In this document: one piece after another, positions 27,658-50,560 of the stretch
Layout: each line of letters opens with the position of its first letter
Position numbering within the stretch: position 1 is the stretch's first letter
From: Rubripirellula sp.
GTDB taxonomy: Bacteria > Planctomycetota > Planctomycetia > Pirellulales > Pirellulaceae
Reading direction: 5' to 3'
DNA length: 52,810 bases
Assembly (NCBI GenBank): GCA_012270385.1
Contig: JAAXIK010000274.1
Coordinates: 1 to 52,810, forward strand
Position numbers and translations under genes: made by a program
Notes under the pieces: generated by a model
Told to the model about the DNA's origin: nothing
What the model saw: the letters and a program-made list of their open reading frames with translations, nothing else
Database searches by the model: none

Positions 27658-30012
27658 TTAATTGCGCGTTTGATTCATAGCTCGACGGAACTCGTTGAAT
27701 GCGTCGCGGTATGCAGCGGGCACGGGTTGAGATGGAGCGGAATCAATCAGGGATCCAAGAGAATCTTCGCTTTCTGTTATTCTTGATGCTCCATCGCTAG
27801 GCGATCTCAATCCCAAACTCTTCAAGGTTTGATCCAATTCGTCATTTCCTTCGCTTCCTGCAGTGTTAGGTAGCTCACGTATCTTGTTCCAACGATCAAC
27901 GAATTCGTTGAGATCTTTCTCGCTCCACTGGAGCTCTTGCAGAAGATCTTGATTGGGTTGGTCACGCGTCCGTTCTAGGTAATCCAGAACGAGGTCCGTG
28001 GCTTTTTTGGCGTATTCAAGATCCACTTCATCTGGTGGTTGAGGATTTGCAAGGGAACCATCTCCAAAAATCTCGTCGCCCTGTGTTGGTGACGTATCCG
28101 ATCTTTCACTATTCGTTTGATCGCCAATTTCTCCCGTCTTATCCTTAGGTGAGTCGGAACCGCTGTCCCCATTTTGTTTTTTTTCCGAGTCCCCGCTGGT
28201 AGGTTTTTTGTCATTTGAATCTGTGGTGGATGTCTCGCTTTCGTTTGGCGTCTCTTTTCCACTTGGCGAGTCATTTGCCGACTGAGAGTCCTTGGTTTTT
28301 TGAGTATTGGATTCCCCCTGCTGCGTCGATCCATCGTTTGAAGAATCGTTGCCATTGCTTTGTGATGGTTTTTGTCCATCACTCGAGTTCTGTTGGTCCT
28401 TGGTGGAAGGGTTCTCGCCTTTCGAATCACTGTCATTTGAGCTGCTGGAATTTTCTTCATCAGCAGTTTCGGATGTGCCGTCGCTCAAGCCTTGGGACTG
28501 CTCCGTGGTAGAAGCAGATTCCGATTGACTCTCTTGACCGAGGCGATTTTCATTCGTTGAAGACTCGTTTGCATCCGATGCGTCAGTGGATGACTCGGAA
28601 GGCTGTCTACTGTCTTTGGGCTCGCTTGAGTCACTCGAGTCTGAGTCTCCACCCGGATCTGGGTCTCCAGCCGACTTGTTTCTGTCTTTGTTTTCTAGGA
28701 AATCTCGAATGCGTTCAAATGCTTCGCCATCGTGATCGGGTTTACGCTTTGGCTGTGATCCTGCATCACTTTGGTTTGAATCTTGGGAAGCATTTTCAGG
28801 GAGGGTTTGATCTTGAGAGTTCTCAGAATCTGCTTCAGTTGACGCGGTCTGATCGCCTTCGGAGCTGGAAGTTGGGTTGTCTGACTGATCAGAGCTACGA
28901 CCCTGCCCCGGATTCGAATCCTGTGATGTGTCATTTGGATTCGTCGGGGCGAGTTGGTTTTCTTGATTTGAATCCGAGTTGCTTTGTATGGGTTCGGCGT
29001 CCGCTTGTTGTGGCTGACTCTCTGACGTCATACCACCGTTCTGTTCGGAAGACACATTAGTGGATTCATCTTCGGAGGCTTGGTCTTCTTGGCCGGCCTG
29101 AGTTTTCGATTCTGATGGATCACCCTGACTGGTGCCTTGGTTCGAATGATCGTTGGAAGCATTGGCATCACCCGTAGGATTAGACGATTGGTTATCAGTT
29201 CCTGTCTGAGTGTCGTTGTTTGATCCGTTCCCCGAAGAGCCCTCCGAGGAGTCCTCAGTGTCGTTTGGCATATCGGATGTCGACGAGTCTGATGAAGGAT
29301 CGCCATTCTTTGGATTGCCATTCTGTTGACTTGCATCCCCTGATCCGGAACCACCTGCGCCGGATTCGTCCGCTCCCTGTTCTCCCTCAGATTGGGTTGA
29401 GGGCTTGCTTGGGTTGGACTGAGGGTTAGATAGTCCATCTGCTTCTGGATCATCTTCAGCGGGTAGACTGCTCGGCGCTGTAACTCTCAAACGAATGGGG
29501 TCGGTGCGGGTCACGTTGGGTTGCAAAATCGCTGGAGAAGTTCCAGGTTGATCATCCCTTCGATTGTCAGTCGCGATACCAATCAGTTCGATTGTGTCTC
29601 CGATCTTAAGATTGAATTCCTCGGGACGGATCGGGATACTGACGAGTTGACGCCCTAATTTTCCAGCACGATTTTCCCACAGCACGGGTACCAGCTCGCG
29701 TTGATTACCGTAGTTGATCTGCAGTTCGATGCGGCTTAGTCCAAAGTCAGGATCTGAAGCATGTAATTCAACCCTCTGTTGTGCGTTGAATGGGACATCC
29801 TTCGGCGTTTTGGCTGGAAGCGTGATAGCGATTTCGGGCGGGATATCCGCGAGAACATCGATGGGATAAATAATAGGATCGATGTTTTCCTGATTCACCT
29901 CGTCCCAGACTAAAATTCTGTAGGACTCTTTAGCTCGGGTTCCGGGGAGATTTGAATCGGTACGGACTGCAAATTTCGCTGAAAGTCCTTTTCCTGTTGA
30001 ATCAATTGACAT
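27658..30012 (-). CDS. C-terminal part of a large planctomycete-type membrane protein (Ser/Asn/Gln/Asp-rich linker); likely continuous with 30052..31155 across an in-frame TAG
   Basis: Frame identical to the upstream ORF. Beta-sandwich-like segment '[51 protein letters not shown]', then ~450 aa of low complexity, then a conserved-looking helical C-terminus. Confidence 0.8.
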
Positions 30013-30051
30013 TTCAACAACGCCTGCGGTGGCTTGAAGGCGCTCCCCAAC

Positions 30052-31155
30052 CTAGGCTGGGGTGAGCTCAATCTTGGCTCGTTTTACCGGCGGGTTGACT
30101 AGGGCAGGGCTCTCGAGATTTGTTCCATCTGTGGCCTGTGTCGCGCCTAGCGTTTTGGAATAATTTCCCAAACGAGTGTACTTGGGCGGGGAATAGTTGA
30201 TTCTGTCGATGGCAACAACGGGTGCATCTTGGACACTCAAGGTGTAAGGCCCCGCTGATGCATCACCGGCAATCACTTCATAATGGATGACACGGGCAGA
30301 TGTGTAGGGAACGGCAAGGGTTCCGACGTAATGATTGACTTCCTTGTCATAGATGAGTTCAAACTGATCTTGTTTCGTTACCGAATTCCACACACAGGTG
30401 ACAGCCTCGTTGGCGTAAAGTCCTTGAATGCTTGCTTGAATATCTATCGATTGACCTGCAGTCACCTCAGCGTCGCCCGGAAGGACCTGATCGATGAGGA
30501 CACGCTGCGGAGCATCGATATTTGCAAGAGGCGCACCCAGTCTCATCATCGCTTGGACACTGCTCTTGGGTGAGATCAAAACATAGGCCACCAATAAAGC
30601 AAGACTGCTGATTGAGATCAGCCACCACTTCACCGTGCCCGTGACCTCGGTTGGGAGCGCATCGTGGCCACGAAGTTGCTTCCCGGTGGAAGAAGCAAGG
30701 CTGCGAAGCACTCCAAAGCCAAGCTTATCTTTTTTGGATTCATTCCTCAGTGTTAGATAACTGAGTAGTGACTGTCTTGCATTGGGAAGATCTTTTTCCA
30801 ACGCCCTCGCAGCATACTCAGGAGTGATAGTGCTACCTAAGATGGGCATCAGGTGACGCAGTAAGTATTCGATTGCTACCGTGACAAGTAAGCCAAACGC
30901 CAAGCAGCGCAGGATGGGACCTGGGGAATAGATCCATTGATCAAGTACAAGCCAACTGATGATGAGTACATTGATACGGACAACCAAGCCTAGGAATTTT
31001 CTGATGAATTCTGCTCGCCATAGCGCTCGGCAGGATTCGTCAATCCTTGAATCGATGAATTGATCCAACGTGGAGGTGTCTGTGCGTTTCCACTGTTGAG
31101 GTGCCTCTTCGGGACCGAGGTCGTTCTTTCGGTGGTGAGAGGGGGCCGCAGACAT
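30052..31155 (-). CDS. N-terminal part of the same membrane protein (two TM segments)
   Basis: 'LGLVVRINVLIISWLVLDQWIYSPGPILRCLAFGLLVTVAIEYLL', 'TVKWWLISISSLALLVAYVLI', then 'SPPKYTRLGNYSKTLG…VKRAKIELTPA*'. Confidence 0.82.
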   Translation of the reverse strand: MSAAPSHHRKNDLGPEEAPQQWKRTDTSTLDQFIDSRIDESCRALWRAEFIRKFLGLVVRINVLIISWLVLDQWIYSPGPILRCLAFGLLVTVAIEYLLRHLMPILGSTITPEYAARALEKDLPNARQSLLSYLTLRNESKKDKLGFGVLRSLASSTGKQLRGHDALPTEVTGTVKWWLISISSLALLVAYVLISPKSSVQAMMRLGAPLANIDAPQRVLIDQVLPGDAEVTAGQSIDIQASIQGLYANEAVTCVWNSVTKQDQFELIYDKEVNHYVGTLAVPYTSARVIHYEVIAGDASAGPYTLSVQDAPVVAIDRINYSPPKYTRLGNYSKTLGATQATDGTNLESPALVNPPVKRAKIELTPA

Positions 31156-48622: not shown

Positions 48623-50446
48623 TTATTCGTTTTCACTGAAAAGGGATTGGAGTGTGGATTCGATGTTTTCTTTGTCAGTACCATCCAGATCACTCTGTAT
48701 TTCCCGAATCCATTCTAATGCTTCATCACGTAGGCCATCATTCGTTTTTGGAGCAATGAACTGATAAACGGATTTGGCCGCTGTGCTGAACGTGTCTCCC
48801 GCAACTTCGAAGCGAGCTAGTTGATGAGCAAGTGCCCAAGGTAATTCATCAATGGTGTAGATCTAATTTTTAGCGGTATATCTAACAACAAATTGTTCCG
48901 GACTTTTTTCAACTACGATCCCCCGACAGTCACGTGTAACTTCAAAGTCATTTCCTATTTCAAGTTTGGAAATGGAATCAGTAATCGCAGTTCGATAGAA
49001 GATGGCTAAGTCAATGATCTGAAAAAGCTCCGTAGCTCGACTCATCTGCTCTTCTGACATTTCCTGATCCAGCATTCGATTTGCGATCAGGTTCATCTGA
49101 TTCCAATCCGCTGCTTGGATAGCTTGTGAAGCAGTTTGTAACACTTGCTCTGCTTTCTCCAGAACCTCATCACTGAGAGGTTCCGGTGAGGTTTCGTTGT
49201 CTGGAGTTTGTGGCTTGGTGAGGTCGGGTGCGGGTTGCATCTCCTCCTTCATCTCGTTGTTCGGTTCTTCCGATTCACCGCCTTGTTCCATGTTGGTGTC
49301 GGTGGGCGTTGTCGTCGGCTTTGGTTTTTGCTCTTCCTTCGTTTCAGGAATGGGATCGCTCAGTTTTTGTTCGCTGCCATTATTCTTCGTTTCTTTTGAA
49401 TCAGGCCCCAAGCTCCCCATGATGGGATCTTTTGGCTTAGCGGGAGGAGGTGCTTGTGGTTGATTTTGCACATCTTCTGGATTGGCTTCCTGATCTTCTG
49501 GTTTCGTGTTCACCGCAAAACCGTCATCAGATACCGTGATCACAACACCCGGCCTGTTGATAATGAAGAAGAGAACGACTCCCACGACTCCAAAGCAACA
49601 GATAGCGAAGATTGCGGGGACCAGCATCCCTGTTTTGGATCGTCGCCTCCGGTTGCCCTGAGGTCGCTTGACTAGCAACTCATCTTCGTTACTGATTGCT
49701 GGAATACTTTCTTCAAAGCTGGGAAGTGTGATGGTTTCTTGGTCAGGGGAATCAGGTATTTCAATGGAATCCGTAGGTTGTGACTGATTGGATTCAAGAG
49801 AGCTTAATAGATCAGAGGGTAACAGTGACTCATCAGAGGGAAGTAAGCTTTCTGATAAAAGTACATTCTGCTCGATTGCGGTTGTTTCTCCATTGGTAGA
49901 GTCTGACGAGTCGAGGTCATCGTTCGTTAGATGTGGAGGCGTTGGGAAGTCTGGAGGGCTAACAGGTACTGGAGGGCTAACAGGTACTGGAGGGCTAACA
50001 GGTACTGGGGGAGTAACTACTGCTGGGTCATCTTCTTCTTTCGACTGACCTTCTGACGCCTCACTCACCAGTACAAAATCCTCCAGCGGATTGGTGTCCG
50101 GTAGTAGGCCATAAAGTGGGTCATCCTCAGCGAGGCTTGTTGCAGTGAAATTGGACTTTGAAGAGCCTTCAGCAAAGCCCCCAACCGTTGTGAGTTGTGG
50201 TTGCTCCCTTTTAGAAGGATCCGACAAGATTTGTTTGGCATCCGTCGCGAGTCGAGCAGCCGCTTTCCATCTTTTCGGATTCGCTGTTTCTTTGCTCGCC
50301 TTCAGTTCCCTGATCACTTTACGCATTGTGGTCTGGATGACTTCTGGATCAGCTTCATCAGGCTTCAATCCGAAGACGTCGTACGCATTTGGCTTCAAGA
50401 CACCGTCTGGAATAGGCAAAAGATCGGAGAGAGGATGGGCCGACAT
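48623..50446 (-). CDS. Planctomycete-type membrane protein with degenerate J-like N-terminus, one TM helix and low-complexity linker; interrupted by in-frame TAG at 48863-48865
   Basis: 'NAYDVFGLKPDEADPEVIQTTMRKVIRELKAS', TM 'GMLVPAIFAICCFGVVGVVLFFIIN', C-terminal '…VVEKSPEQFVVRYTAKN*IYTIDELPWALAHQLARFEVAGDTFSTAAKSVYQFIAPKTNDGLRDEALEWIREIQSDLDGTDKENIESTLQSLFSENE' ending TAA. The ORF track ends it at 48863. Confidence 0.8.
49952..50005. repeat. Three perfect 18-bp tandem repeats (coding, VPVSPP)x3
   Basis: tggagggctaacaggtac at 49952-49969, 49970-49987 and 49988-50005. Confidence 0.97.
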
Positions 50447-50560
50447 GATGACTGGAGTGAGTGGTGAGAGTGAATTGAGGACGAGAGATTGATGTATCCT
50501 AGGACAAACAATAAGCGACAAAAATGACGATGTTGGGATAAAAAGGATCGAAATGATCAA

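Follow-up and report, generated by a model that had tools for sequence, protein, structure and literature searches.

The window analyzed here, a stretch of 52,810 nucleotides, is contig C274 of a Rubripirellula MAG (G000; 5.1 Mb, 553 contigs, ~90% complete). It carries, on the minus strand, a reading frame of 607 codons that is split by an in-frame TAG codon at positions 48863-48865. The genes for a type III pantothenate kinase and an Obg GTPase lie on one side of this frame, and a gene for an M20 peptidase lies on the other. The start given in the mechanical ORF list is the TTG codon at position 50560; the homologues favor the ATG codon at 50446. An earlier note on this DNA had described an in-frame TAG followed by 79 coherent codons that run to a TAA, and translation of the frame reproduced this arrangement exactly as quoted. 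The tail contains the peptide stretch IYTIDELPWALAHQLAR. It had also been noted that ordinary ORF calling misses the tail, and the standard ORF list does indeed stop at the TAG. The features are collected in Table 1.

Table 1. Features of the interrupted frame and of the window
Feature	Position	Strand	Basis or content
Gene head	48866..50446	(-)	translation, Pfam, homologues
Head: weak J-domain-like N-terminus, then long Pro/Ser-rich linker	residues 20-82 (N-terminus)		
Head: apparent membrane segment after the first linker, then second linker	~residues 275-300 (segment)		by eye
Head: 3' end			first half of the C-terminal domain
In-frame TAG, codon 528	48863..48865	(-)	translation, homologue alignment
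79-codon tail	48626..48862	(-)	genus-wide conservation; AlphaFold2 model (mean pLDDT 88)
TAA, true gene end	48623..48625	(-)	near the stops of unfragmented homologues
Possible error patch	48812..48934	(-)	7 of the 11 private bases at codon positions 1 and 2 within the C-terminal domain
Second TAG in the window	30052..30054	(-)	within a 1165-codon frame, 27661-31155

The N-terminus was found to match the Pfam DnaJ family (PF00226) only weakly (E = 0.0033), with a score that falls short of the curated cut-off. The protein thus resembles DnaJ-domain membrane proteins in its J-like N-terminus of ~60 residues, but it differs from them in this low score and in a C-terminal domain that has no confident PDB fold match; a fold search of the PDB with this domain returned nothing at E ≤ 0.001. 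The AlphaFold2 model of the C-terminal domain (mean pLDDT 88) predicts an alpha/beta fold in which the position of the TAG maps inside the fourth beta strand and the tail supplies the rest of that strand along with four helices. A product that stopped at the TAG would therefore lack the end of the strand and all four helices. The earlier proposal that the tail completes one domain is borne out by this model.

The protein was matched in 22 of the 22 genomes of the genus Rubripirellula. Using tblastn, the tail was found in 20 other Rubripirellula genomes, with 31-71% identity across the position of the TAG. The codon at this position in the homologues encodes Lys (AAA/AAG) or Arg (CGN), with Thr (ACG) in one copy, and none of the 20 aligned genomes has a stop there. 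The alignment of homologues through the tail, which the earlier note had called for, shows that the tail is conserved and that the homologues do not end at the TAG. The unfragmented homologues reach their own stop 0-16 codons beyond the end of the alignment, that is, near the TAA of the window. Private residues in the tail number 4 in 76 comparable codons, and the alignment gives no sign of relaxed selection or decay. Its conservation across the genus identifies the tail as a real coding sequence.

The head and the tail have been regarded as one gene, and this reading holds because the homologues read through the position and the TAG sits within a single predicted domain. The alternative, a head that ends at the TAG and a tail that is a separate gene or a chance ORF, is how standard ORF calling divides the sequence. 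It is refuted by the unfragmented homologues, in which the head and the tail match one ORF, and there is virtually no chance that it is correct.

A total of 437 kb of G000 was compared with syntenic relatives in a homology screen for in-frame stops. The screen returned TAG codons at 48863, at 30052, and in prfA; TAA codons at C239:12274 and in prfA; and TGA codons in prfA and, as a weaker case, at C239:45006. The frame interrupted at 30052 has no Pfam match, and its homologue in G019 is a single uninterrupted ORF of 1236 aa. The prfA gene, which encodes RF1, holds a TGA, a TAA, and a TAG within 26 codons (C239:55727-55801), together with four further changes at residues that are otherwise invariant. 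The rpoB gene (C56:3780-7415) is interrupted by an in-frame TAA at a position that is a sense codon in the relatives (Glu in G019), and additional private changes adjoin it. An in-frame TAG is present in gyrA (C128/C242), and rpoC of G000 is free of in-frame stops. Two multicopy families are also affected in G000, the sulfatases with a TAG and a TAA and an ABC transporter with a TGA; the matches listed for four sister genomes include no such stops. The apparent in-frame stops that the same screen gave in G019 and G020 were rejected as antisense or spurious ORFs or weakly aligned edges. Essential genes of this MAG thus carry in-frame stops of the substitution type, and all three stop codons are represented. 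Several of the in-frame stops are surrounded by clusters of private changes, most of which are transversions. The single-copy genes rpoB, gyrA, and prfA are interrupted in G000 but not in its relatives, and no other genome of the genus has an in-frame stop in prfA, rpoB, rpoC, or gyrA. No frameshifts were found across ~100 conserved genes of G000, which is unlike ordinary gene decay.

Direct evidence for base errors comes from two pairs of overlapping contigs, which disagree with one another base by base, mostly by transversions. The overlap of C242 and C128 in gyrA spans 121 bases and contains 11 mismatches. At the position of the gyrA stop, the codon is AAG in C242 but TAG in C128; further along, C242 contains an error of its own. 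The overlap of C255 and C239 in prfA spans 51 bases and contains 4 mismatches, all of them transversions. The gyrA overlap settles what type of event is involved, a base error. In gyrA columns that are invariant in the other genomes there are 17 changes found only in G000; transversions outnumber transitions 19 to 2, and the changes are for the most part tightly clustered.

For the in-frame stops examined, a transversion is the simplest route from the codons of the relatives. The excess of transversions among the nine stops then counted, three of which lie in prfA and are not fully independent, is unlikely for natural mutation, with P values of 0.008 (kappa 2) and 0.065 (kappa 1). The stops of natural pseudogenes are expected to arise mainly via transitions (PMC8629427). 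The A<>C and G<>T substitution classes ("dye cross-talk") are not unusual in G000 overall, and for this reason no particular machine error is claimed.

Were the stop a genuine nonsense mutation that arose recently in the sampled strain, the protein would end at residue 527, and the gene would be either a young pseudogene or the source of a truncated product. A single substitution from AAG would suffice for this, and the undecayed tail is as compatible with a very recent event as with an error. However, rpoB, gyrA, and prfA would then need real stops as well, and their joint loss is impossible. The transversions that most simply account for the stops, the lack of frameshifts, and the disagreement between overlapping contigs also count against a mutation, which we consider unlikely.

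Far less probable still, to the point of being negligible, is a recoding in which this lineage translates TAG as an amino acid, through reassignment or through partial suppression or readthrough, while RF1 decays. Five conserved genes do contain an internal TAG (those at 48863 and 30052, prfA, gyrA, and a sulfatase), the prfA sequence appears broken, and terminal TAG is rarer than in G019 (13/80 versus 44/143 conserved genes, a small sample). Nevertheless, with 13 of 80 conserved genes ending in TAG the codon is not avoided, and the TAG in gyrA is AAG in the overlapping contig. The residues found at the TAG sites also differ, being K/R at 48863, S/E/L at 30052, K in prfA, K in gyrA, and Y in the sulfatase. 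Of 22 tRNA matches in the MAG, which is 90% complete, none had a CUA anticodon. The genes for RF1 and RF2 are both present, prfA being split over C255 and C239 with corrupted bases. The resemblance to UAG reassignment in code-15 phages and ciliates is limited to the in-frame TAG codons within conserved genes; the MAG differs in having all three stops, no single residue at the TAGs, no CUA tRNA found, a TAG that is still terminal, and sister genomes that are unaffected. A TAG-specific recoding was rejected because TAA and TGA also interrupt genes. Any hint in the earlier note that TAG is special, as a second case of its kind, is not supported, since in-frame TAA and TGA are about equally common in conserved genes, including essential single-copy ones. 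Programmed readthrough was rejected as well, because no homologue has a stop at the position and there is consequently nothing that is conserved.

The explanation that we favor, with a probability of about 0.88, is that the TAG at 48863 is a wrong consensus base in a low-quality MAG and that the gene is intact in the organism. The true codon would probably be AAG (Lys), misread as TAG in the consensus, and the type of error demonstrated elsewhere in the assembly would have produced it. At 48863 itself the case for an error is indirect: the site lies 3.9 kb inside the 52.8 kb contig, away from the contig ends, and no second contig of the MAG covers it. The private bases around the stop may form an error patch: apart from the stop they are mostly T>G and A>C, and there are none at codon positions 1 and 2 in the last 64 alignment columns of the C-terminal domain. 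This cluster is only moderately unusual, and it is no more than suggestive because G020 and G003 have comparable clusters. False stops from consensus errors in draft MAGs show the same clustered substitutions in many cases, and they likewise affect essential single-copy genes, comprise all three stop codons, and accompany contig overlaps that disagree; the stop at 48863 differs from them in lying inside a long contig. Although the sequence was read correctly, the stop is most probably not a biological feature.

A low-quality MAG can therefore mimic the recoding of a stop codon. An apparent recoding can be checked cheaply by asking whether TAA and TGA are also present within genes, and by inspecting essential genes and contig overlaps. 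On the favored explanation, the locus encodes a ~607-residue, apparently membrane-anchored protein with no assigned function that is conserved throughout Rubripirellula. The gene described here is best handled as one intact 607-codon member of this genus-wide family.
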